A stretch of DNA of 42,902 nt from Bacillota bacterium. Its GTDB lineage: Bacteria > Bacillota > Sulfobacillia > Sulfobacillales > JAIMBI01. Location: contig JAJZWV010000032.1 in NCBI GenBank assembly GCA_021846505.1, positions 1 through 42,902 on the forward strand. The letters run 5' to 3'. The notes beneath the pieces were generated by a model. The model was given only the letters and a program-made list of their open reading frames with translations, was not told the DNA's origin and did not search any database. A program made the translations under genes and the position numbers. Shown here one piece after another: positions 668-15,119 of the stretch (the first letter of the stretch is position 1; each line of letters begins with the position of its first letter).

Positions 668-1738
668 CTAGCGGGCCCACCGTGAGAGCCACTGCCCCAT
701 ATGAAAGGCGGACTCCTGTGCCCAGTGCGCGCTCTGAGCCATGGCGTCCGCCCGGGTTCGGGGAGCCAAGGTGAGCGGAAACGCTGCCGCTAACCCGGCG
801 GCGTAAGCCGCCTGCATGGCGGCGGCCGATCCAAACTCTCCCACCAAGGCCACGGCGGGGACCCCGCGGGCACGCGCATGCGCTAGCACCGTCCCGACCA
901 CCTTGCCGTCCAGGGAGGATTCATCCAGCCGGCCCTCGCCCGTCACGACTACGTCCGCGACGTCGAGCCAGTCGTCCAGGTGGACCACGCCCGCCACGGC
1001 CTCGGCGCCGGGCACCAGCTGCGCGCCAAGAGCCGCGAGGGCCATGCCGGCACCCCCGGCGGCTCCCGCGCCAGGCTGCTGGCGCAGCGGCCGGCCGGCT
1101 GCCGCTTCCAGTGCGGCGCCGAGATCGTCCACCGCTGTGGCGAGCGCGGGCAATTCGTCGGGCGCCACGCCCTTTTGGGGCCCATAGCGATACACCGCGC
1201 CGCGCGGCCCCGTGGCCGGCACCATCGCGTCACACCAAGCGGTCAGGGGCACCGGAAAGGGTGGCAGGCGAAGGGCCGACCCCTGGGCAACGCCCAACGC
1301 CTGCAGCAGCCCCCACCCCCCATCCGTGCTGCCGGTGCCCCCGAGGCCAATCCACACGCGCCGGGCTCCCCCCGTGATGGCAGCAGCCAGCATGTCGCCC
1401 AAGCCGGCGCTGGTGGTGGACGCCGCCGACCGCGGGCGACGGGCTTCGGGCACGAAGCCGGGCCCCTCGGCAGCCTCCATCACCCAGGTGCCGTCGCGCA
1501 GCACCAGCACCTCCGCCATCCGGTGTCGCCCGTAGGCATCGTGCGCCGGCACGCGGACCCATCGGCCGCCGAGCGCGGCCTGCACGACCGCCGCGGTGCC
1601 CTCGCCTCCATCCGCCAGCGGGCAGCCAATCACCTCCACGCCGGCGAGCGCGCGCCGCAAGCCCGCGGCCACCGCGCTGGCAAACCGCTGCTGGCTGAGG
1701 GCGCCTTTGAGTGCATCCGGAGCCACCAGCACCCGCAC
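668..1738 (-). CDS. Glycerate kinase (GlxK/GarK family)
   Basis: Phosphorylates glycerate, normally to 2-phosphoglycerate in this family (type 2 glycerate kinase), feeding lower glycolysis; cytosolic. The protein of about 356 residues has the usual family length. It shows the N-terminal APDALKG motif (residues 6-12), ADGGEGT (about 42-48), a glycine-rich GLGGTGSTDGG stretch near the middle and TGEGRLDESS towards the C-terminus. I chose the GTG at 1738 rather than the ATG at 1786 because GGAAGGAGGA lies 6 bases before it, while the ATG has no Shine-Dalgarno sequence. It is the last gene of the minus-strand operon, 57 bases after the aconitase X small subunit. Together with the reductase at 4873-5733 it suggests a route through tartronate semialdehyde and glycerate, but the substrate entering the pathway is unknown. 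Confidence 0.9.
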   Translation of the reverse strand: MRVLVAPDALKGALSQQRFASAVAAGLRRALAGVEVIGCPLADGGEGTAAVVQAALGGRWVRVPAHDAYGRHRMAEVLVLRDGTWVMEAAEGPGFVPEARRPRSAASTTSAGLGDMLAAAITGGARRVWIGLGGTGSTDGGWGLLQALGVAQGSALRLPPFPVPLTAWCDAMVPATGPRGAVYRYGPQKGVAPDELPALATAVDDLGAALEAAAGRPLRQQPGAGAAGGAGMALAALGAQLVPGAEAVAGVVHLDDWLDVADVVVTGEGRLDESSLDGKVVGTVLAHARARGVPAVALVGEFGSAAAMQAAYAAGLAAAFPLTLAPRTRADAMAQSAHWAQESAFHMGQWLSRWAR

Positions 1739-1795
1739 CGGCGCTCCTCCTTCCCGTGACGGCTCCTGACGGCTCCGGCGCGCCATAAGAGGCGG

Positions 1796-2227
1796 CTACC
1801 GGGCGGCGATGGCCAGCTGGCGCTCCGCCGGGCGGAGCGCGGCCCACATTCCACTTTTCAGCTTATCCCAGTCCGCCGCCAGGATCCCGTCGGCAATGGG
1901 CACCCCGGCCATCACCGCGCCGTGCACCATCACCGAGTTGGCAATGCCAAACACAAACGCCAGCGGGGCCAGACCTCGCGACTGAAGGTCAAAAAACGCC
2001 CAGCCGGCGGCCACCCCGCCCTTGGCCGTGGGGAACGCCACGATGTGGCCTGCCAGCTTCTCTCCAAAGAGACTGTGAGCCCGGCGCGTGACGATCCCGG
2101 TGCTGCGGTCCAAGTCATACCGCGGGCTGAACCCGTCGGACGCCACCAGCAGCGGGCCCTCGACCGTGCGCCCATACGCGCGCGCCAGGAGCACGACCTG
2201 CGGATTGCCGTCACTCCGCGCCGTCAT
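1796..2227 (-). CDS. Aconitase X swivel-domain (small) subunit, DUF126
   Basis: Small subunit of a two-gene aconitase X-type (AcnX) dehydratase; in characterised AcnX enzymes the swivel domain closes over the active site and supplies a catalytic serine. The 143-residue protein has the swivel layout with conserved blocks LVASDGFSPRYD (about 28-39), FPTAKGGVAAGW (65-76) and a GAVMAGVPIADG-type tail. In characterised members the middle block is P-x-G-R-G-S-S/C; here the serine is replaced (KGGVAAG), so this is a divergent subfamily. The ATG at 2227 overlaps the large-subunit stop by 4 bases (ATGA), so the two are translationally coupled. The longer upstream frame has no support as coding sequence. 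Confidence 0.8.
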   Translation of the reverse strand: MTARSDGNPQVVLLARAYGRTVEGPLLVASDGFSPRYDLDRSTGIVTRRAHSLFGEKLAGHIVAFPTAKGGVAAGWAFFDLQSRGLAPLAFVFGIANSVMVHGAVMAGVPIADGILAADWDKLKSGMWAALRPAERQLAIAAR

Positions 2228-3465
2228 GTGGTCAGCCTCCCCGCAATGGCAGCCGCGACGCAGTCCGCGGTCCGCCGCAAGATCGGCTGATACGGGTACG
2301 CCCCCACAATGTTGGCCAACTTCGTGGAGTTGGTGACGACGGTGTGCCAGCCATTTTCGCGCTGCAGCCGGTCGATGGTCATCAGGTAGAAGCACACCCC
2401 CGTCAGCACCAGCCCTCCGGCCTGCTCAATAGTGCGGATGTAGCCCAATTGCTGCGCCCACTGGTAATACGCGTGATTGGTGGTCACCAGGAGCCGGGTG
2501 TGACCGTGCACGCGGCGCCCCTCCAAGAGGCTCGCCAGGCGGCCCAATTCATACAGGGACTGCTGGGGCCCGCTGAACACCACCAGATCCACGTCCGCCC
2601 CCGCTTGGTTGGCGCCAAAGGAGGCGTACACCTCCTCCAGCTCTCGCGCGCCCACCGTGAGCGTGCGCCGGGCGGCCGCGGGATTCATCGCGGCCCACTC
2701 CGGCGTCACATCCCTGGCGCCAAACAGGGCAATGGACCCGTAGCTGGCCAGCGCGGCCGCCAGATGCTTCAGCTGGTCCGCCGTGCGAGTGAGCTTGGGC
2801 GCCAGCCCGTCGAAGAAGGGGACCTCCCAATAGCTCTGCGACTGCCGGCCGACCCATGCCCCCAGGGCTCCCCAGTCCGCGTAGTCGTCCAGGCGCACTT
2901 GCACGTCCACCCGCGTGCTGGCTTGGCGGTGCTGGTCTAAGTGGTACCCGAAGGCGGGAACCCGCCCGGTGATGCCCGCCGCCAGCGCGGCGGGCCCGGC
3001 CTCAAAGTTGGACCGGCCCCCCAGCACGCTGTTGGCAAAGCACACGGCGCCCGTGTCGCCCCACGCCAGATGCTCCCCCACGTGCGGCTGGTATACGCTT
3101 TGATAGTTGATGCAGGTATCGACGTTCATGACACCCAAGGCAGCGAGCTGCCGGCGCAGCACGGCCTGCCGCTCGACGAGCGCGAGGTCTTGGTGCAGCG
3201 CCGCCGCGTGGGCGGGGTCGGTAAATCCCGCGTTGAGGGTGGTGGGCACCACCACGTGGGCCCCGTGGTCCACGAGGCGCTGTGCAAACGCCAGGCCCGC
3301 TTCGCCCATCACCTCCATGTCAGCGACGACGTGGGCATTGGAGATGGGGACCAGGCGCTCGGCGCCAAAGTATTCTCCCACCGCCACCTGATACCCCATC
3401 GCCCACTGGGGACCCTCACCGCACTGCCCGGCCAGCATCTGCTCTTCCTGCACACTGAGCTCCAT
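2224..3465 (-). CDS. Aconitase X catalytic (large) subunit, DUF521
   Basis: Catalytic subunit of an AcnX-type hydro-lyase. Known relatives are cis-3-hydroxy-L-proline dehydratase and archaeal mevalonate 5-phosphate dehydratase; the substrate here is unknown. The protein of about 413 residues keeps the family landmarks: MNVDTCINY (about 113-121, canonical TCTPY), AWGDTGAVCFANSVLGG (134-150), GYHLDQHR (173-180), a late TGVCFY (355-360) and TNSTK (378-382). Cysteines 118, 358 and 402 fit the three iron-sulfur ligands of AcnX. The ATG at 3465 has GGGGAG 6 bases upstream; an ATG two codons earlier abuts the Shine-Dalgarno and is less likely. It follows the MFS gene by 67 bases and overlaps the small subunit. 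Confidence 0.87.
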   Translation of the reverse strand: MELSVQEEQMLAGQCGEGPQWAMGYQVAVGEYFGAERLVPISNAHVVADMEVMGEAGLAFAQRLVDHGAHVVVPTTLNAGFTDPAHAAALHQDLALVERQAVLRRQLAALGVMNVDTCINYQSVYQPHVGEHLAWGDTGAVCFANSVLGGRSNFEAGPAALAAGITGRVPAFGYHLDQHRQASTRVDVQVRLDDYADWGALGAWVGRQSQSYWEVPFFDGLAPKLTRTADQLKHLAAALASYGSIALFGARDVTPEWAAMNPAAARRTLTVGARELEEVYASFGANQAGADVDLVVFSGPQQSLYELGRLASLLEGRRVHGHTRLLVTTNHAYYQWAQQLGYIRTIEQAGGLVLTGVCFYLMTIDRLQRENGWHTVVTNSTKLANIVGAYPYQPILRRTADCVAAAIAGRLTT

Positions 3466-3532
3466 CGCCATCTCCCCTTGCTCGCCTGATGATCCGCCCG
3501 ACCTTTCGTCGCGACAGCGCCTGGCCGTCTCC

Positions 3533-4783
3533 CTACGCCTCCACCACCTCAGCGATGGCACTGTCCACCTTGAGGTCTCGGCGGGCATCGCGGGCCAGCC
3601 ACACCAGCAGCGAGGCGGCAAGCAGCGAAGCCGGCAGGACGTACATGGCAGTCTGGAAGCCGTAGTGCTGTGCGAGGAACCCTCCGGTCACCGGCCCCAG
3701 CACCGCTCCCAGCTCCGCCCCAAACAGGGCAATGCCGAACGCCGTGCCAGAAATCATGGGATTGGTGGTGTCGGTCACCAAGGCGATGGCCGTCGGAATG
3801 TACGCCCCAAAAATGCCGCCGAGCGCAATCAGGACAAACAGGGCCACCGGGGAGGACGCCTGGGTAAACGCCAGCAGCAGCACCGCCGAACCCATGGCCA
3901 GAAAGCTGATGGCCTTGACCCGCCCAATGCGGTCCGCCACCACCCCGCTCAGCATCAGGCCCACCGTAATGCCGCCAAACAGCACGGCCGACAGCAGGCC
4001 GCCGCTCACAAAGGACATGTGGCGCACATGGATCACATACTCCGGGATCCATGCACCGGCCATCCAGAACGTAAAGTTATACAGGCCGTGCAGCACGAAC
4101 ACCACCCACACATTGCGCTTGCGCCACACGTCCTTGAGCCGGGGCACTACGCCGCCGCTCATCGCCATGGCCTCTTGATAGCCCGGCGTCTCGGTCCGGG
4201 GCCGCTCCTTGACGTACTTGAGGAGCAGCACGCCGCACAGCACCGAGAGGCCCCCGCTCACGGGCCACGGCGACTGCCAGCCCCAGCGCGCCGCCATCAA
4301 GGTGGCCATGACAATCCCCAAGAGGGTGCCCAAGCTGTAGCCGGTTTCCCAGAAGGCCAGGGCTTTGCCGCGCTTGGCATAGGGATACGTCTCACTGACC
4401 CAGGCGGCGCCGGTAGGATACTGAAAGCCTTCAAACACCCCGGTGCCGATCCGGATAGCGGCCAGCACCGGCACGGATGACGCCAGCGCGGTGAGCCCCG
4501 TGACCGTCCCAAAGCCCACCACCGATCGGCCGACCACTTTCTTGCGCCCCACGCGGTCCGACAGCAGGCCGCCCACGAAGGTCGACAGATAGCCCACAAA
4601 AAATAGCGACACAATGCCGCCAGCGGCGGTAAGCGACAGATGGAAAAACGGGATCATCAGCGGCAGGAGCGGGCCGATTAAGCCCCGGTCGATGAAGTTA
4701 AAGATCCAGCTGACCCAGTTCCAGAGCAAAACTTGGCGCGCGTAGCCATTCCAGTCGGCACTCTGCTTGTAGTGCACGGCCAT
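3533..4783 (-). CDS. MFS transporter (anion:cation symporter-like)
   Basis: Inner-membrane major facilitator carrier of 416 residues with about 12 hydrophobic segments. The loop between segments 2 and 3 carries the MFS signature GGLLSDRVGRKK (about 72-83), repeated in the second half as GVVADRIGRVKA. The start is supported by GGGAGGGA 6 bases before the ATG. Its place between the reductase and the dehydratase genes suggests it imports the operon's substrate, probably an organic or sugar acid as for many ACS-family carriers. Specificity cannot be read from sequence. Confidence 0.88.
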   Translation of the reverse strand: MAVHYKQSADWNGYARQVLLWNWVSWIFNFIDRGLIGPLLPLMIPFFHLSLTAAGGIVSLFFVGYLSTFVGGLLSDRVGRKKVVGRSVVGFGTVTGLTALASSVPVLAAIRIGTGVFEGFQYPTGAAWVSETYPYAKRGKALAFWETGYSLGTLLGIVMATLMAARWGWQSPWPVSGGLSVLCGVLLLKYVKERPRTETPGYQEAMAMSGGVVPRLKDVWRKRNVWVVFVLHGLYNFTFWMAGAWIPEYVIHVRHMSFVSGGLLSAVLFGGITVGLMLSGVVADRIGRVKAISFLAMGSAVLLLAFTQASSPVALFVLIALGGIFGAYIPTAIALVTDTTNPMISGTAFGIALFGAELGAVLGPVTGGFLAQHYGFQTAMYVLPASLLAASLLVWLARDARRDLKVDSAIAEVVEA

Positions 4784-4872
4784 CGTTTGTCCCTCCCGTG
4801 TGTGTCGCGCGGACGCCTGGGAACCCAGAACCGACCCCTGACAGCGGGAAGCCTCCTCACGCCTTTCTCGCG

Positions 4873-5733
4873 CTAGGACGGCAACTTGAAAATGGCCCCT
4901 AAGTCCAGATCTCCGTCCCCTGCCTGCACGCTTTGCTCATACCAGTGCAGGCTGCCCGCGGTGGTGGGCACGTCGAGGCCCGCCCGCTTGGCAGCCGCCA
5001 GCGCCAAGTGCAGGTCCTTGAGCGCCAGGCTGCCTTTGAATCCGAGGGAGTAGTCCTCCTGCAGAGCCCGCGCCACCGTGTTGTTCAGCTGCCAGCTGTC
5101 GGCTGCCGTCTGCCGCATGACGTGCAGCAGCGCCTCGGTGCTGGCGCCGCTCTGCGCGGCCAGCCGGTACGCTTCAAAAGCGGCCGCTAGGTTGGCGCAG
5201 GTGGCGATATTGTTGGCCAGCTTTACGACCTGCCCGGAGCCGAGCGGCCCGCAGTGCAGCACCTCACTGCCCAGCAAGTCGAAGAGCCACCGGGCGCGGT
5301 CGACCTGCGCTGGCTCCCCGCCGGCCAAGATGATGAGTTCGCCTTTGCCGGCCGCCCAGGTGCCTTTGCCGACGGGCCCGTCGATAAGCTCCACGCCGTA
5401 CTGCGCCAGCTCCTGAGCGCACGCCTGATCCGTTTCCGGGCCGGTGGTGCTCATGTCCACCACCATGGTGCCGGCCCGCGCGTGGGGGCCGATTCCGCCG
5501 TCCCCCAGCAGCACCGCCCGGACCACATCGGGATGGGGCAGCATGCACACAATCCACTGGCACTGCTGAGCCACCTCAGCCGGCGATTCGACGGCCCGCT
5601 GGAACTCTCCGCGCTTAGCCGGGTCGACGTCAAAGGCCACCACCGGCACAGCGACGTCCTCCAGGTGATGCGCCATCAAGGCGCCCATGGCGCCGAGGCC
5701 TACAAATCCGACTGCGGGATGCTGTTCTGTCAC
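4873..5733 (-). CDS. 3-hydroxyisobutyrate dehydrogenase-family reductase (tartronate semialdehyde reductase-like)
   Basis: Beta-hydroxyacid dehydrogenase of about 286 residues using NAD(P). The Rossmann motif GFVGLGAMG lies at residues 9-17, the substrate-loop equivalent DGPVGKG at about 118-124, and the catalytic lysine at K171 in GSGQVVKLANN. The usual DAPVSGG substrate motif is altered, so substrate choice among tartronate semialdehyde, 3-hydroxyisobutyrate, threonate and similar compounds is open; the glycerate kinase at the end of the operon favours tartronate semialdehyde to glycerate. I chose the GTG at 5733 because AGGAG lies 8 bases before it; that Shine-Dalgarno overlaps the end of the aldehyde dehydrogenase gene, whose stop is 11 bases upstream. 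Confidence 0.85.
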   Translation of the reverse strand: MTEQHPAVGFVGLGAMGALMAHHLEDVAVPVVAFDVDPAKRGEFQRAVESPAEVAQQCQWIVCMLPHPDVVRAVLLGDGGIGPHARAGTMVVDMSTTGPETDQACAQELAQYGVELIDGPVGKGTWAAGKGELIILAGGEPAQVDRARWLFDLLGSEVLHCGPLGSGQVVKLANNIATCANLAAAFEAYRLAAQSGASTEALLHVMRQTAADSWQLNNTVARALQEDYSLGFKGSLALKDLHLALAAAKRAGLDVPTTAGSLHWYEQSVQAGDGDLDLGAIFKLPS

Positions 5734-5744
5734 GCTTTCCACTC

Positions 5745-7181
5745 CTATTCCTGCTCCAGCGGCATCCGCCGCCACTGGATTGATTTTTGCCGGCTGAGTT
5801 CGGCCAGCACTTCCGCGCCGTATCCGTATCCCAGTCCGCTGGCGCCAAACGGCTCTGATGCCGCGCCCGGAGCCTTGCCGCGCCGGGTGTTGATTTTCAC
5901 CATGCCAGCCTTCAGGCCTTCAATGGCGCGAAGGACATGGTTGGCATCGTTGGTACACACGACCGCCGCCAGGCCGTAGGTGGAGTCGTTGGCCAGGGCG
6001 ATGGCGTCGTCGAACGTGTCGAAGGGAACCAGCGGGGCGACGGGGCCAAACGTCTCGCTGCGCATCAGCAGGCTCTGCCCTTGCTCCGGGAGAACCATCA
6101 CGGTCGGCGGAAAGAAGTATCCCGGCCGCGCCAGCCGCTGGCCGCCAGCCAGGATGGCCGCCCCATGGGCCACGGCATCCGCTATATGAGATTGCACCGT
6201 CGACAGCTGCAGGTCATCCACCAGCGGCCCCAAGTCCACGCCTTCCTCGCGGCCATCGCCCAAGGAGAGATCCTCGGTCACCGCCACCAGCTCACTCACG
6301 AATTGGTCAAAGATGGCGCGGTGAACAAACACCCGCTCGGTGGAGGTGCAAATCTGCCCGCTGTTGGCAAAGCACGAGTCCGCCACCAGCCGGGCGGCCG
6401 CCGGCACGTTGACGCCGTCGTCCACGATAAAGGCATCTTTGCCACCCAGCTCGAGAATTGCCTAGCGGGTGCGCTCGCCGCAGATTTTGCCTATGTGGTG
6501 GCCGGTGCGCACGCTGCCAACAAACATCACCACGTCGACCTGGCAGCTCTGCACCAGCGCCTCTCCGGTATGGGCCCCATCACCCAGCACGACATTCAGC
6601 ACGCCGGGCGGCAGGTGGTCAAACGCCTGGGCCGCCATCCGCAGCAGCGAGAGCGGCGTCTTTTCCGACGGCTTGGCCACCACGGTGTTGCCCACAGCCA
6701 AGTTGGGTGCCAGCGTCTCCATCGCCACCTGCAGCGGGAAGTTCCAGGGGACTATGCACGCCGCGATGCCCCGCGGCTCCCAGCGCTGGAACACCAGCTC
6801 GTCAGCGGGGGCCCCTTGGGACCCCGATCGATAGTGCACCGCCAACTCCGCAAATTGCTCCAGCCAGCTGGCCGCGCCCAGCACCTCAGCGTGAGCCTGG
6901 GCCACGGGCTTGCCGTTTTCCTCCGTCAGCACATCGGCCAATTCTCCTGCCTGCTCCCGGATCCGCGCGGCCGCACGCAGCAGCAGTGGGCGCCGGCCCG
7001 AGGGGCCCAGCGCACGCCACGCGGGCCCCGCCGCCTCCGCCGCGGCTACCGCGGCGGCCACATCCTCGGCCGTGCCGACCGGAATTTCCGCCACCACCGC
7101 CTCCGTGGCCGGATTAGTGATGGGCAGGCCGATCGCCCCCGTGCTGGGCCGTAGCGCCCCCGCAATCCAGTGCTTCTCCAC
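5745..7181 (-). pseudogene. NAD(P)-dependent aldehyde dehydrogenase, interrupted by an in-frame TAG
   Basis: First gene of the operon; as an intact frame it would be 478 residues, normal for the ALDH superfamily, oxidising an aldehyde to its acid. It has PWNFPLQ (residues 145-151), AKPSEKTP (169-176), the nucleotide-binding FVGSVRTG (220-227), LELGGK with the general base E244, and the nucleophile C278 in NSGQICTS. The Glu-to-Cys spacing of 34 is canonical. A single TAG codon (6462-6464, codon 240) lies between CGERTR and AILELGGK, with both sides in the same frame and no other damage. The GTG start at 7181 has GGAGAGGG 6 bases upstream. Either a recent nonsense mutation, a sequencing error, or readthrough. 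The N-terminal half alone lacks both catalytic residues. Confidence 0.88.
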
Positions 7182-7194
7182 TTCAATCCCTCTC

Positions 7195-7252
7195 CGTTCT
7201 ATAGGACGACTATAGACGTCCTATCCATGACGCGCAAGACACTCTTTTAAAT
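7195..7252 (-). promoter_or_regulatory. Promoter and operator of the AcnX/glycerate kinase operon
   Basis: On the minus strand TTGCGC is followed after 17 bases by TATAGT, a good -35/-10 pair about 30 bases upstream of the aldehyde dehydrogenase start. The inverted repeat ATAGGACG-N8-CGTCCTAT (7201-7224) has the -10 box exactly in its 8-base spacer, as expected for a repressor site. The central GACTATAGAC also resembles the small GT-n-TA-n-AC-type palindromes bound by HutC-type GntR regulators. The divergent GntR gene is the obvious candidate to bind here (inference). Confidence 0.6.
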
Positions 7253-7279
7253 ATCTTTGTGGAAGCCGCCACTGGCGCT

Positions 7280-7293
7280 GGTGTTCGGACACC
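7280..7293. promoter_or_regulatory. Short inverted repeat in the divergent promoter region
   Basis: GGTGT-TCGG-ACACC is a perfect 5-bp inverted repeat with a 4-base centre, located between the two divergent promoters and about 150 bases before the GntR start. It could be a second regulator site or a leader hairpin. Confidence 0.3.
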
Positions 7294-7442
7294 GATTCGG
7301 CTAGGTGTATCTTGATGGGGGGATACGCTCATGCGCCTGGCCGGCCAGGCCCCCGGGGCAGTCGAATGCCAGAGAGCGCTCCCGCATCAGCCAGGGCAGG
7401 AGCGTGCAAGCCCGAAAAAGCCCGAAGAGAGAAGGTCAGGCA

Positions 7443-8204
7443 ATGAATGTCGACCGGAACAGCTCGCTCCCGCTCTACCGGCAAATTGCCGCCAGCTTGC
7501 GGCAGCGCATCGACACCGGCGTGCTGCCTCCGGGATCTCGCTTCCCCAATGAAGAAGCGCTGCGGCAGCACTATGGGACAAGCCGAATCACGATCCGGAA
7601 TGCCATTCAGCTGCTCGCCGACGACGGGTTGGTGGAGAAGCACCATGGCAAGGGGACATATGTGCGGAACGACGTCGTGGCGATGGAGATGGGGGCGCTG
7701 CAGGGGTTTTATGGGGCGCTGCGCCGCACGGGAGCGGCGGTCACCACGGAGCTCTTGACGTGCGACACCGCGTCGCCGCCGGCGGAGCTGGCACGGGCCC
7801 TGGCTATCCCTGCCGGGACCCCGGTGCGGCGGCTGGAGCGGCTGTACCGAGTGAACCAGCGCCCGCTGGCGCTGACCACCAGCTATCTGTGGGCCAACGT
7901 AGCGGTGACGTTCGACCAGGCCGCCTCGACCACGGTGTACGGCTTGCTGGCCGCCCACCTGCCGCTGAACCTGAAAGAGGCTCGCTGGTCAATTTTTGCC
8001 GAGGCAGCTTCACCGCGCCATCGCGAGGTGCTGTCAGTGCCCGGCGGCTCGCCGCTGCTAGGCATGTCGCGCACAACCCTCTCCGAAGACGACGTGCCGC
8101 GCGAGCACACCGTGCACCACATCGTGGCGACCCTCTACCAGCTGCACCTCACCGTGCCGCGAGACGCGCGCCCGCTCGACGACGATTTCCTCATTCCTCA
8201 GTAG
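7443..8204 (+). CDS. GntR-family transcriptional regulator, HutC/UTRA subfamily
   Basis: DNA-binding regulator of 253 residues. Residues about 7-73 form the GntR winged helix-turn-helix (PLYRQIAASLRQRI ... SRITIRNAIQLLADDGLVEKHHGKGTYV), and residues about 90-235 fit the UTRA ligand-binding domain with the RLERLYRVNQRPLAL segment and a C-terminal HHIVATLYQ strand. The ATG at 7443 has AGAAGG 7 bases upstream; upstream residues of the same frame are not protein-like. It is transcribed away from the AcnX operon across a 261-base promoter region, so it most likely senses the operon's substrate or an intermediate and controls that operon and itself. Confidence 0.9.
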   Translation: MNVDRNSSLPLYRQIAASLRQRIDTGVLPPGSRFPNEEALRQHYGTSRITIRNAIQLLADDGLVEKHHGKGTYVRNDVVAMEMGALQGFYGALRRTGAAVTTELLTCDTASPPAELARALAIPAGTPVRRLERLYRVNQRPLALTTSYLWANVAVTFDQAASTTVYGLLAAHLPLNLKEARWSIFAEAASPRHREVLSVPGGSPLLGMSRTTLSEDDVPREHTVHHIVATLYQLHLTVPRDARPLDDDFLIPQ

Positions 8205-9677: not shown

Positions 9678-12600
9678 TCAGTGAGTCCCGGCCGCCGGTG
9701 TCACGCCGGTGGCGGCGATGCGTCCGCCCTCTTCCGCCCACATCCCCGCCGCGACGCCCAGCTGCAGCGTGCGCTCGACGGCCGCCCGCACGCGCGCGCC
9801 GGTGCGCTGGAGGCCGTACACCCGCGCCACGCTTTGCACCAAGTCGTCCCGGGAGAGCGAGTAGGCGCTCTGCAGCACCAGCAGCACAACCTGGGCCAGC
9901 TCTTCGGGCGCCACCTGCGACAACTCCCGGTCGCTCAGCGCGCGGGCCCGGATCGGCGAGCCCGCCACGTAAAGAAATTGGTCATCGCCGTAGGTGCGGG
10001 ACTCCAGCTCGCCCCGCATCGTGCAGTGGAGAAATTCCAGCACCTCGCGGCGCCGGCGATCCGAGGTGCGCCCGTACAGACGGCGTGCCACCACGTCTAC
10101 GTGCACCGGGGCTTCGCGGCGCACCACCTGGTCCGCCTGGCCCCCTGCGTCCTCGGGGTATTCCGCCAGCATGGGCGCCGGAGGGGCGGATTCGGGAGCC
10201 ACCGGGACCTTAGGCGCCGGCAGTGCTGCCTCGTCGGAGATGTCGTCCTCCACCGCAGCGCCATCAGGCAGGTCGGCGGCATCGTCCAGGGGAGCCGCCA
10301 GGGCCTCTTGGTAGGCCTGCTCCAGCTGGGCGATCACCGCCGCCCGGTTTTTGATCCAGTCCGGCGCCCACACCCGTGCGATGTGCCAGCCCAGCCCCTC
10401 CAGCACTTCCTGCCGCAGCCGGTCCCGCTCGCGCGCGGTCGGCGTCCCGTGATACTGGGCGCCGTCACACTCCACCCCCAGCAGAAAGCGCCCGGGGTCG
10501 TCCGGGTGCACCACGCCCAGGTCAATCCGATACCGGCCCACGCCCACCTGCGTGCGCACGGACCAGCCCAGCGCGCGCAAGGCCCCATGCACACTCTCCT
10601 CCAGTGGGGACTCAAAGGTGTCCGCCTCTCCCGCCCCGCGGGCCAAGCCCAAGGCGGCGGGGCCGTGCTGGGCATAGTCCAGGTAGCGCTGCAGCATGGC
10701 CACGCCGCGGCTTAAGCTTTCCCGCTGGGCCAAGTCTTCCGGTGCCAGCGACGACACGACTTTCACATGGTCCCGGGCCCGGGTGATGGCCACGTTCAGC
10801 CGGCGATACCCGCCGTCCAGCGCCAGCGGCCCAAACTGGAAGTGCAGCCGCCCGCTGGCGTCCCGGCCATACCCGGTGGACAGGATCATGACGTCGCGCT
10901 CATCGCCCTGCACGCGCTCCAAGTTCTTGACAAACAGCGCCACCGGGCTGTCGCTGCCCAGCCATAGGGCCAGCGCCGGGTCCTCCCGCGTGCGCCGCTC
11001 CAGCTCGTCTTGGATGGCCTCCATCTGGGCCGCCGAGAACGTCACCACGCCGAGGCTCTGGCGCCGGCGGCGCTCCACATGCTCCACCACCAGCTGGGCC
11101 ACGCGGGCCGCCTCCGGCTGGTTGGCCCGCGTGCCCCCGCGCCCGTACAGCCCATCGGCCACCCGGACGTACTCCACCCCGCGATACGGCGCTTGGTCCA
11201 CGGCGGACGGGAACGTCACCAAGCCACCCTCGTATACGTCGTGGTTGGAAAACGCAATCAGGCTTTCATGGCGGCTCCGGTAGTGCCAGCGCAGCCGCGC
11301 GCGGGCCACTTGGGACACCCGTGAGAGGTCCAAGAGACTGTCAAAGCTCAAGAGGCCGGCCTCATCCTCGGGATCGTCCGCCGCCCCCACCGCCCGGTCG
11401 GTGAAAAAGTCGGTGGGCGGCAGCTGGTGCTGGTCCCCCACCACGATCGCCTGGCGGGCCCGCAGGATGGCGCCGGCGGCGTCCTCGGGCCGAACCTGCG
11501 ACGCTTCGTCAAAAATCACCAAGTCAAACCGATACAGGTCAAGGTCCAGCAGCGTGCTGACCGCCAGCGGGCTCATCAGCAGGCACGGCTTAATTTCGGG
11601 CAAGAGGTGTGACACCTGGCCGATGAGCTTCCGCAGCGGCATGAACCGGCGCCGCTTCTGCGCCTCCCGCAGCACGATCGAAGTCTCCGCACTGGCGGCC
11701 TGCACCAAATCCCGGGGGCGGCGCGCATACAGCTGGTGGCGCAGGCGCTCCCGGTGCCAGTGGCAGAGCTCGCGGTCCAGTGCGCGGAACTGCCGCACGC
11801 GGTCCATGTGCTCCTGCCGCCGAAATCGCGCCAGCACCGGGCGCTCGCGGGCCACCGCATCCAGCCACTCTTGATAAAACCGGCGCCAGAATCCCTCCTG
11901 CATCCGCGCGACCGAACCTGGGCCAGCAGTGCGCCAAAGCTCCGCAACCCACTCGGCGAACCCCGCCTCCTCCAGCCCGCGGCACACCGCGGCCACGGCG
12001 GTCCAGTCTTCCAGCTCACTTAAGTGGTCCATGCGCTCGGCCAAAAACGCCAAGCCCTGGCCAAAGGGCCACGACCGAACCACCGACGCCATCGGCGCGG
12101 ATCCCGGGTCGGAAAACAGTGCCTGAAACCTGTCCAGGGCCGTCTGCAGCGCCTCGCGTGCTGCCTCGGTGCGGTCCAGTGCCGGCGCGGCGGCGGGGGG
12201 CACGCCCGCCACCGCCAGCGCTTGAAAGGCGGGCGTCAGCGTCACGCCGGGCAGCGCCTGTGCCCATCGGCACCACTCGATCGCCCGGCCCACGCGCTCC
12301 CAATCCGTCCTCATCCCCGCGCAGAACGCCCCGAAGCGCTCGCGGAGGGCCGGCGCCTCCTGGTCCAGCGCTTCCTCCAGGCGCCGGATGGCCTCCAGCT
12401 GGGCCGCCTCCTCGCACAGGGCGGCCCAGCCGACGCTGCCAGACGTGCGCGCCGCCAGCAGCTGCGCCGCCGCTGCCAGGGGCCGCTCGCCCGCCGCCAC
12501 GTAAGCGGCGGCCTGCGCGCGGATATCTGACAGGTGTCCGGCAAACGGCAGCGCGGGTAGGTTCGCCGCCACCTGGCGCCACGCCGCCAGTGCCTGGGCC

Positions 12601-15119
12601 AGCGTGCGGCGGGTGGAGGTGGGCAGCACCGGCTCGGTCAGCGCGGCGGCCAGTGCCGGGGATGGGTCGGCCCCCAGCCGCTGAACAAACTCCAGCGTGA
12701 GGGCGGCCGCCCGATGCGCGCGGCCCCAGTCGGTCTCGTCTCCCTGATAGTGGCGGCCCATCTCCTGTTGGAGTGAGGCCCGCTCGGCGTCGGCCCACTG
12801 AAGCCGGGCCTCGGCCGCCAGCGCGTCGGCCAGCCGGCCGAGCGCATCCCATGACGCGGGCGCTCCCAGCGTCTTGGCGAGAGCATCCTGGGCGGTGCTC
12901 CAACTCCGCGCGCGCACCCACCGCGCCACCGGGCTTCTAAAGGGAGCCAGCGTGGCCATGAGATCCTCGGCCGACAGGCGCCGCCATCCCGGCGCCTCGC
13001 TGTCCAGCTGCCGGTGGAGGGCGGCGAGCTCCTGGGCTCGCCGCTCGGCGGCCGCAGCGGCCCGCTCCGCCGCGCGGGCCCGCTCCCCCGACAGCCAAGC
13101 CGGATGCGCCATCGGGCCTTCTAAAAGAATCTCTACAAGGCGCACCGTGCGCCCAATGTCAGACGGGACCTGCGGGCGCGGAAGCCCCAGTTCCTCGAGC
13201 GAGCCCCCGAGCGCATCCAGCGCGGCCAGCGCGGCCAGCACCACGCCCGCCGCCTGGTGCTGTCGGAGCGCGGGCACAACGGCGGTGCTGAGGTCGGGGT
13301 GGGCGGCGTGTGCCGCCTCCGCGGAGGCCAAGTCCGCGCGAATCGCGGCTAAAGCGTCCCGCCTCGGCCGCTGGTCTGCCGGGTAGAGGGGCTCCAGGCG
13401 CCGCGAGTCGTCCCAGTAGCGCTCGGCGGCGGCTCCCCGGGCCAGGGCCTCTTCGGCGCGCGCATCCAACACCTCGGGCGCGAACCATGCTCCCTCGCGC
13501 ACCGGGGCGGTCCGCGCCGCCGCCGCCAGCGCTGCCAAATCTTCCACCCCGGCCAGGGTGGCCGGCGCGTCCAAGTGCAGGACCTGGGCCAGCGCAGCGG
13601 CCGCCGCTTGGACGTCCTCCAGCCCGCGGCGGATTTGCAGAAGGTCCGCCGCCCGGTCCTCCCGCTCGGCCAGCAGCGACACGCCGGGACCCTGGTACCC
13701 ATACCAGGGATGATGCGAGCCCGCCTCCACCACCGCCCGGTACTCCGCCAGCTGGGCCATCCCTTGGCGCACTGGCCTAAGACGCCGCTCGGTCCACTGA
13801 AGCGGCTCGGGCACGGGAAACGGGAGGCGGGGGGCATCGTGCAGGGGGGCCAGGCGGCCATAAATCTCGTAAGGCGTCCAGCGGCCGGCGCCGGCCGGCT
13901 GGTGCAGGGCCGCGACGTAGCTCGACAGCTCCTGGCGCACGGCCTGGTACTCCTCCGGCACCCGATCGCTGGGAGCCGGCGGCGGCAGCTCTCCGTTCAG
14001 CGCCCGGGCCAAATCGCGGACAATGGCCCCCCGATCCGGCTTGCCGTGGATGGAGAGGCAGAAGTCGCTCAAGCCGACCGCCGCGAGTCGCCTTTCGACC
14101 ACCTCCAGCGCAGCGGCCTTCTCGGACACAAACAGCACGCTTTGGCCCTGGCCCAGCGCGGTGGCAATGATGTTGGCGATGGTTTGGCTCTTGCCGGTGC
14201 CCGGCGGTCCCTCGATAACCAGATGGCCGCCGTTCAAGGCGTGCCACATGGCCACCACTTGACTGGAATCCGCCTCCAGCACTTCGTGCAGGGCGTCCAC
14301 CGGGAGTGCGTCCAAATCCTCGGGCAGGGGATCGGGGATGGCCGGGGCATCTTGCACGGCGGTGCCGCCCGCGAGGGCGGCCAGAAACGGATGCGCTTCG
14401 TAATCCGCCGCGCGCTCCAGCATCTCGCGATACATAACCAGCTTGGCAAACCCAAAGCGTCCGATGGCTGAGCTCGGCGCCACGGCCCAGCCCAGCGGCT
14501 GCACTAATTTCTCCACCGCCGCCAGGTACGCCTCGGGATCGGGGCTCTCCTCATCCAGCGGCGGCAGCGCCAGCTGAAAGTCCGCCACGAGCCGCTCGTG
14601 CAGGGCCGGGTTGGCCACAGGGTCCTCGTCGCGCAGCGACAGGCGGAACGGCTCCAGCGCACTTTTCCGCTGCAGGGTGGCCGGCAGCAGCAGCAGCGGT
14701 GAGCGATGCACCGCTTGGAGCCCCTGGGCTTCCCGCCACTCCAAGGTGCCGACCGCCACGTGCAGGATGGGCACGCCCTGCTCCTCCATGGACGTCCGAT
14801 CCTGCTCGCTGAGCCGCTGAATGAGGCGGTCCCGCTCGCGCCCCGTGAGCGCGAGCTCAAGGTCGCCGGCTTCCTCCGCGAACGCGCCCTCCGCCGGATC
14901 GCCCTCGGGGGCGGGTGCGAGGGGCCCCACCCACCGGGGCAGAGCCAGCTCGCGGCCGGCGGCAAGCGCCTTCCACACGCGCATCGGGTCGGGCGCGCTG
15001 ATCACGGCGAGGCTTTTTGGCTTCATCTCCAGCAGGGGATTGCGGAAGGTCAAGTCCATGAGGCGGTTGCGCCATCCCTCGATGACATGGGCCACGGCGT
15101 CCGAGCCATTTGCTGACAT
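9678..15119 (-). CDS. DUF4011 / SF1 helicase / Vsr-like nuclease / DUF3320 protein (Hhe-like antiphage candidate)
   Basis: A 1,813-residue intact single-gene protein. The N-terminus (about 1-290) fits DUF4011, opening with a WRNRLMDLTFRNPLLEMK block. An SF1 helicase core follows: Walker A GPPGTGKS (304-311), Walker B LVIFDEAS (about 1199-1206) with GDQHQLPPTDF next, and the late NVAITRARDH motif. A long helical insertion (about 420-1130) separates the motifs. Then comes a Vsr/DUF559-type nuclease domain with GVECDGAQYHG (1548-1558), RERDRLRQ and DWIKN, and a DUF3320-like C-terminus (about 1690-1790). The order matches the defence family I recall as Hhe. It probably acts on foreign nucleic acid; the target is unknown. 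The ATG at 15119 has a purine-rich GGGAAGGGG, rather far at about 13 bases. It stands alone between degraded stretches, typical of a defence-island gene. Confidence 0.88.
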   Translation of the reverse strand: MSANGSDAVAHVIEGWRNRLMDLTFRNPLLEMKPKSLAVISAPDPMRVWKALAAGRELALPRWVGPLAPAPEGDPAEGAFAEEAGDLELALTGRERDRLIQRLSEQDRTSMEEQGVPILHVAVGTLEWREAQGLQAVHRSPLLLLPATLQRKSALEPFRLSLRDEDPVANPALHERLVADFQLALPPLDEESPDPEAYLAAVEKLVQPLGWAVAPSSAIGRFGFAKLVMYREMLERAADYEAHPFLAALAGGTAVQDAPAIPDPLPEDLDALPVDALHEVLEADSSQVVAMWHALNGGHLVIEGPPGTGKSQTIANIIATALGQGQSVLFVSEKAAALEVVERRLAAVGLSDFCLSIHGKPDRGAIVRDLARALNGELPPPAPSDRVPEEYQAVRQELSSYVAALHQPAGAGRWTPYEIYGRLAPLHDAPRLPFPVPEPLQWTERRLRPVRQGMAQLAEYRAVVEAGSHHPWYGYQGPGVSLLAEREDRAADLLQIRRGLEDVQAAAAALAQVLHLDAPATLAGVEDLAALAAAARTAPVREGAWFAPEVLDARAEEALARGAAAERYWDDSRRLEPLYPADQRPRRDALAAIRADLASAEAAHAAHPDLSTAVVPALRQHQAAGVVLAALAALDALGGSLEELGLPRPQVPSDIGRTVRLVEILLEGPMAHPAWLSGERARAAERAAAAAERRAQELAALHRQLDSEAPGWRRLSAEDLMATLAPFRSPVARWVRARSWSTAQDALAKTLGAPASWDALGRLADALAAEARLQWADAERASLQQEMGRHYQGDETDWGRAHRAAALTLEFVQRLGADPSPALAAALTEPVLPTSTRRTLAQALAAWRQVAANLPALPFAGHLSDIRAQAAAYVAAGERPLAAAAQLLAARTSGSVGWAALCEEAAQLEAIRRLEEALDQEAPALRERFGAFCAGMRTDWERVGRAIEWCRWAQALPGVTLTPAFQALAVAGVPPAAAPALDRTEAAREALQTALDRFQALFSDPGSAPMASVVRSWPFGQGLAFLAERMDHLSELEDWTAVAAVCRGLEEAGFAEWVAELWRTAGPGSVARMQEGFWRRFYQEWLDAVARERPVLARFRRQEHMDRVRQFRALDRELCHWHRERLRHQLYARRPRDLVQAASAETSIVLREAQKRRRFMPLRKLIGQVSHLLPEIKPCLLMSPLAVSTLLDLDLYRFDLVIFDEASQVRPEDAAGAILRARQAIVVGDQHQLPPTDFFTDRAVGAADDPEDEAGLLSFDSLLDLSRVSQVARARLRWHYRSRHESLIAFSNHDVYEGGLVTFPSAVDQAPYRGVEYVRVADGLYGRGGTRANQPEAARVAQLVVEHVERRRRQSLGVVTFSAAQMEAIQDELERRTREDPALALWLGSDSPVALFVKNLERVQGDERDVMILSTGYGRDASGRLHFQFGPLALDGGYRRLNVAITRARDHVKVVSSLAPEDLAQRESLSRGVAMLQRYLDYAQHGPAALGLARGAGEADTFESPLEESVHGALRALGWSVRTQVGVGRYRIDLGVVHPDDPGRFLLGVECDGAQYHGTPTARERDRLRQEVLEGLGWHIARVWAPDWIKNRAAVIAQLEQAYQEALAAPLDDAADLPDGAAVEDDISDEAALPAPKVPVAPESAPPAPMLAEYPEDAGGQADQVVRREAPVHVDVVARRLYGRTSDRRRREVLEFLHCTMRGELESRTYGDDQFLYVAGSPIRARALSDRELSQVAPEELAQVVLLVLQSAYSLSRDDLVQSVARVYGLQRTGARVRAAVERTLQLGVAAGMWAEEGGRIAATGVTPAAGTH

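Follow-up and report, generated by a model that had tools for sequence, protein, structure and literature searches.

The window, a 42,902-nucleotide stretch of DNA from a member of the Sulfobacillales, carries a conserved, locally regulated operon of acid-mine bacteria in which both subunits of an aconitase X (AcnX) are encoded together with a glycerate kinase. As judged from the sequences, this AcnX belongs to a subfamily shared by the Sulfobacillales and Proteobacteria in which the residues of the known dehydratase site have been replaced. With somewhat better than even confidence, the locus is read as an operon, inducible by its substrate, for the catabolism of a single imported organic anion, feeding the glycerate kinase by way of the rebuilt AcnX. 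A broader proposal, made more tentatively and at slightly less than even confidence, is that in the subfamily the serine-based dehydratase site has given way to one catalysing a reaction not previously known in the aconitase superfamily, and that this reaction opens an undescribed organic-acid pathway ending at glycerate in the Sulfobacillales and in glycolate/glyoxylate metabolism in some Proteobacteria. A literature search, with little coverage of subscription journals, retrieved neither an AcnX-glycerate kinase operon nor a description of such a loss of catalytic residues, in agreement with the sequence-only reading, which knew of no published pathway with this gene set.

Gene content, conservation and predicted regulation of the operon

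The six genes of the operon are encoded on the minus strand, and are listed here in the order of transcription together with the divergent regulator and the candidate operator.

7443 to 8204, plus strand: divergent GntR-family regulator with a UTRA domain (HutC type; PF00392 and PF07702)
7201 to 7224, no strand assigned: palindrome, candidate operator, upstream of the ALDH start
5745 to 7181, minus strand: aldehyde dehydrogenase (ALDH; SSADH/AldA-like), first gene of the operon, with one in-frame TAG (PF00171 in both halves)
6462 to 6464, minus strand: in-frame TAG at ALDH codon 240, private to the window copy (Lys codon, AAA, in the orthologous locus L030 of congener G003)
4873 to 5733, minus strand: 3-hydroxyisobutyrate-dehydrogenase (HIBADH)-family reductase (PF03446 and PF14833, NAD_binding_2/11; below all NCBIfam equivalog cut-offs)
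3533 to 4783, minus strand: MFS carrier (MFS_1, 209.7 bits; nearest NCBIfam model a D-galactonate transporter, below its cut-off)
2224 to 3471, minus strand: AcnX large subunit (PF04412, 358.6 bits)
1796 to 2227, minus strand: AcnX small (swivel) subunit (PF01989, AcnX_swivel, 74 bits; aligned to 7cnr_B and 7cnp_A)
668 to 1738, minus strand: glycerate kinase (GlxK/GarK family), last gene of the operon (PF02595, 273.6 bits; above the TIGR00045 cut-off; adjacent in L031, L032 and L036)

The genes named in the sequence-only reading are all found in place, with Pfam matches far over the cut-offs; the divergent HutC regulator carries both GntR and UTRA domains, and the 4-base overlap of the AcnX subunits is borne out by an ATGA in which the large-subunit stop (2224-2226) meets the small-subunit ATG (2225-2227). 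The HIBADH and MFS genes are separated by 89 bp, a point against the catabolic-operon reading. A score of 236.9 bits against TIGR00045 (cut-off 168.45) places the glycerate kinase in the GlxK/GarK family. Next to the operon, the minus strand at 9678-15119 holds an 1813-residue ORF that has helicase-like motifs (GPPGTGKS) and possibly codes for a large helicase/nuclease protein.

The order ALDH-HIBADH-MFS-AcnXL-AcnXS-GK recurs in the congeners G001, G002 and G003, pieced together there from contig pieces and ends, with G001 contributing AcnXL-AcnXS-GK alone before its contig ends. The order ALDH-HIBADH-MFS-AcnXL is also found in Sulfobacillus benefaciens AMDSBA4, and this recurrence places the operon far beyond chance. 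Values of dN/dS of 0.03-0.22 across the operon genes indicate purifying selection, the best conserved protein being the MFS carrier (92.5% identity in L030; dN/dS 0.03). A recombination mosaic was suspected from the identities of the MFS carriers (92-94%) versus those of AcnX and glycerate kinase (64-81%), and was ruled out by synonymous divergence that is even across the genes (pS 0.57-0.63 in comparisons with the window). Among 154 genomes of the class, relatives of the AcnX at E<=1e-60 occur in six genomes of the order and one distant genome (38% identity), while close relatives of the HIBADH-family reductase at the same threshold occur in four, all of which encode this AcnX; these genomes are related rather than independent cases, and the count is not a probability. 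No such HIBADH gene was found without the AcnX in the class at E<=1e-60 or in plasmids at E<=1e-40.

The palindrome, ATAGGACG-N8-CGTCCTAT, lies approximately 20 bases before the ALDH start. It occurs as a perfect 22-base version in L030 and with one mismatch in L100 (congener G002), and both loci retain the GntR/UTRA regulator in the same divergent orientation. When genomes G000 to G003 and G029 were searched with up to three mismatches, one site each was found in G000, G002 and G003, always before the operon, the G001 contig ending before the palindrome region. The reversed pattern returned no sites in the same genomes, none is expected from shuffles of the window, and no wider regulon was found in these genomes beyond the site before this operon. 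We infer that the divergent regulator binds this palindrome.

The ALDH gene is divided into two ORFs solely by the in-frame TAG, which the sequence-only reading had overlooked. Read through, it codes for a single ALDH of 478 residues, whose Aldedh match is split into halves of 199 and 219 bits, and its orthologues in L030 and L100 are intact. Apart from this single codon the window ALDH is intact and constrained. The TAG may be either a point mutation or a sequencing error, and the window copy may be impaired by it. A second operon fragment in the genome of the window (G000), on contig C58 (L035; corresponding to window positions 3045-6143), shares 93% DNA identity with G002 and about 76% with the window copy. 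Over the operon, the window is 69-79% identical to the congeners, as against 86-90% for a core stretch of G000 compared with G001 and G002. The window contig may therefore be a second copy, or an island, that has diverged, or it may come from a related species through mis-binning; the AcnX analysis is unaffected in either case.

The active site of the AcnX subfamily

AlphaFold2 models of the two subunits, based on alignments that contained 10 and 14 sequences with plasmid sequences left out, reached pLDDT values of 91.8 (large) and 92.9 (small). The large subunit aligns with 7cnr_A at Z 52 and 35% identity and the best Foldseek match of the small subunit is 7cnr_B (E 6e-12), the structure comparison pointing to the AcnX/aconitase fold alone. 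This fold, and the presence of both the catalytic and the swivel domain in the operon, place the pair in aconitase X. In the Agrobacterium tumefaciens enzyme (AtAcnX; 7cnp/7cnq), Ser70 is the general base, Thr72 and Trp35 lie at the substrate, Glu292 and Lys530 at the hydroxyl group and Ser293 and Tyr534 at the carboxylate, while Cys273, Cys508 and Cys510 are the cluster ligands, with Cys283(L) instead in type IIb (PMC8184944). Substitution of the Glu by alanine abolishes the activity of type I AcnX, and this Glu has been called "highly conserved" in all AcnX enzymes (PMC10040528).

The window AcnX falls in a clade common to the Sulfobacillales and Proteobacteria, with 100/100 support and a long stem. 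Its rows comprise the window, G001 to G003, S. benefaciens, G040, Aquisalimonas lutea, Cupriavidus, Caballeronia, Polaromonas, Sulfitobacter S190 and Pseudorhizobium NT-26 (two copies), and partial genes among them lack some active-site positions. In AtAcnX numbering, the clade retains the equivalents of Cys273, Cys508 and Lys530, that is, two cluster cysteines and the active-site lysine. The large subunit carries the replacements E292D, S293T, H451Q and Y534I as well as Gly294, and in the small subunit the general base is lost (S70G), followed by Val71 and Ala72, with Arg35 for Trp35. Arg35, Tyr36, Asp37, Arg40 and Trp75 in the small subunit are found only in this clade, as are Asp205 and Glu207. 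Gly70 is present in all 11 clade small subunits covering the site and in the second NT-26 copy, with Ser in all others sampled; Asp, in place of the Glu said to be conserved in all AcnX, occupies the catalytic position (E292 / E129 / Ap E145) in every clade row covering it, with Glu elsewhere. The other AcnX proteins sampled, type I from hydroxyproline clusters included, keep Ser70, Glu292 and Ser293 in 24 cases out of 24.

Ser and Glu are likewise retained in other deep-branching AcnX types of the same order (L068 in G016, L070 in G024 and L072 in G012). A different two-subunit AcnX with both residues is encoded on a plasmid of Pseudomonas sp. MPC6 (L108, 2312-8990), beside a class II aldolase, an SDR, a HIBADH-family reductase with an ISGG motif and MFS/DMT carriers, with no hydroxyproline genes in view.

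AcnX has only two known activities, and types IIc to IIf are of unknown function (PMC8184944, PMC10040528). That the window enzyme is a cis-3-hydroxyproline dehydratase is a very remote prospect. It shares family, fold and the Cys273, Cys508 and Lys530 equivalents with AtAcnX, and its large subunit scores 223.6 bits against the NCBIfam C3LHyp dehydratase model, but this is far below the 700-bit cut-off of a model that spans the fused protein, which a large subunit alone would not be expected to reach. The substrate-binding and catalytic residues Trp35, Ser70, Thr72, Glu292, Ser293, Asn294 and Tyr534 are all replaced, Cys510 is absent, and AtAcnX groups outside the clade, with L071 from another genus of the family of the window organism. 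Nor does the locus contain proline racemase or epimerase genes or any other hydroxyproline context, unlike the plasmid type-I loci.

A role as mevalonate-5-phosphate dehydratase, as in archaea, is barely credible, even with the type IIb enzyme of T. kodakarensis (TkAcnX; 7cnr/7cns) as the closest solved structure (large subunit E 2.6e-60; Z 52). Both subunit folds, the separate large and small subunits and the equivalents of Cys110(L), Cys342(L) and Lys361(L) are shared. In contrast, the third cluster cysteine, Cys283(L), is lost (GCPH to SGPQ), Ser62(S), Glu129(L), Ser130(L) and the Tyr365(L)/Tyr534 position are replaced, and the acidic residues D205 and E207 occur in what is the phosphate-binding loop of TkAcnX (PMC8184944); the gene context is catabolic, with no isoprenoid genes alongside. 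On its residues, tree position and context, the AcnX is thus predicted to be neither of the two known dehydratases. It does not cluster with either type in the tree, and its companion genes are conserved in relatives, so that neither of the two observations named as counting against the sequence-only reading, tight clustering with the hydroxyproline enzymes and a lack of conservation of the other genes, was made. Like types IIc to IIf, the clade consists of bacterial AcnX proteins with two subunits that lack the landmark residues of both known enzymes (PMC8184944, PMC10040528), and it may be one of these already named types.

The same comparison weakens the earlier suggestion that an imported hydroxy acid is dehydrated: dehydration by the clade AcnX appears doubtful because the residues that perform it are replaced throughout the clade. 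This argument concerns the loss of the known mechanism and says nothing on the nature of a new one. The invariant Arg in place of Trp35, placed in the pocket by alignment, suggests an extra anionic group, and hence a second negative charge, on the substrate. Loss of the general base and the catalytic Glu could also mean that the protein is a sensor or scaffold that has lost its activity, which is highly unlikely given that the new residues do not vary between the Firmicutes and the Proteobacteria, the two subunits stay together, the cluster cysteine pair and lysine are retained, and AcnX dN/dS lies at 0.06-0.18.

Gene neighbourhoods and a possible route to glycerate

The genes accompanying the clade AcnX differ among the Proteobacteria. 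In NT-26, AcnX L+S occurs with SulP, TRAP, GntR and choline-dehydrogenase-like oxidoreductase genes, and the same neighbourhood contains a two-subunit sulfopyruvate/phosphonopyruvate-decarboxylase-like pair, malate synthase G, an HbpS-like gene, GlcDEF and acetate-CoA ligase; a second AcnX copy is followed by an SSADH-type ALDH. On the NT-26 plasmid (L089, 27196-42659), the two AcnX L+S copies, which have the same small-subunit protein record, flank the glycolate oxidase/malate synthase set. Cupriavidus encodes GntR, a TTT binding protein, AcnX and an SSADH-like ALDH, with a decarboxylase-like pair, a SulP-like remnant and a choline-dehydrogenase-like gene upstream. A GlcD-like oxidase adjoins AcnX in Sulfitobacter S190, where fumarase-like, SDH-like and TTT genes are divergent. 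Caballeronia combines AcnX with a MatC/CitMHS-type carrier and GntR, and G040 with MFS and GntR, which suggests that carrier, AcnX and regulator form the core, the other enzymes being lineage-specific. The TTT, TRAP, SulP, MatC-like and MFS carriers beside the clade AcnX belong to types known to handle organic anions, while the substrate type of the NMT1-type ABC system in Aquisalimonas is less clear. Neither HIBADH nor glycerate kinase was found beside the proteobacterial clade members inspected, which argues for a lineage-specific downstream route.

The HIBADH-family reductase scores 179.5 bits against the tartronate semialdehyde reductase family (cut-off 340.75) and carries the substrate motif PVGKGTW (GKG) in place of PVSGG (SGG). 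Its PVGKG can be aligned both with PVSGG, as found in tartronate semialdehyde reductase, and with PVGR, as found in sulfolactaldehyde reductase, and resembles the latter motif; on these features the enzyme would not be a canonical tartronate semialdehyde reductase. The best glyoxylate carboligase (Gcl) scores in G000 to G003 are 187.6-318.4 bits against a cut-off of 711.2, in draft genomes where absence is not proof. Gcl-like genes at 645-678 bits, near the cut-off, are found in G009, G010 and G012, which belong to other genera of the order, and that of G009 lies approximately 4 kb from a glycerate kinase gene.

These results bear on whether the operon is a glyoxylate-to-glycerate branch, with tartronate semialdehyde reductase and glycerate kinase, in which AcnX is incidental. 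A HIBADH-family reductase does occur with a GlxK-family kinase as in the Gcl pathway, NT-26 AcnX lies among glc genes, and Sulfobacillus uses glycolate, which occurs as an exudate in acid mines (PMC4378227). With no carboligase over the cut-off in the genus, a reductase lacking the SGG motif, an ALDH in the operon and AcnX in every operon copy seen, such a branch is nevertheless unlikely. The convergence on tartronate semialdehyde put forward in the sequence-only reading accordingly stays unproven, and glycerate as the end product retains the glycerate kinase gene as its sole support.

A sulfonate or similar strong acid as the substrate, imported, turned over by AcnX and processed by sulfolactaldehyde-type chemistry, is distinctly unlikely. 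In its favour, a Lys of the reductase occupies the position of the Arg in the PVGR motif of sulfolactaldehyde reductase, and SulP transporters and sulfopyruvate-decarboxylase-like subunits are encoded near clade members in Cupriavidus and NT-26. The scores are, however, far below the sulfolactaldehyde reductase and sulfopyruvate decarboxylase cut-offs, and the SulP family also includes dicarboxylate carriers. Glycerate kinase is not known to have a role in sulfonate routes.

Proposed pathway and implications

In the favoured reading, a catabolic operon for an organic anion, the GntR/UTRA protein would act as a repressor binding the palindrome ahead of the ALDH gene, and the MFS carrier would import an organic, probably dianionic, acid. 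The two-subunit AcnX, a type-II subfamily member with a rebuilt active site, would convert the imported anion in a reaction that need not be a dehydration. Its product would pass via an aldehyde or 2-oxo acid, oxidised or reduced by the ALDH and the HIBADH-family enzyme, to D-glycerate, which the glycerate kinase would then phosphorylate. A hypothetical shared C3 intermediate, for example hydroxypyruvate or tartronate semialdehyde, would be compatible with the glycerate kinase of the window as well as with the decarboxylase-like, ALDH, glycolate oxidase and malate synthase set of NT-26.

The clade represents a sharp case in which fold and cluster cysteines are retained and catalytic residues replaced, within a compact operon that has its own regulator and carrier. 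These two partners should reveal the substrate of the AcnX, and the clade would show whether the aconitase scaffold performs chemistry beyond dehydration and hydration.
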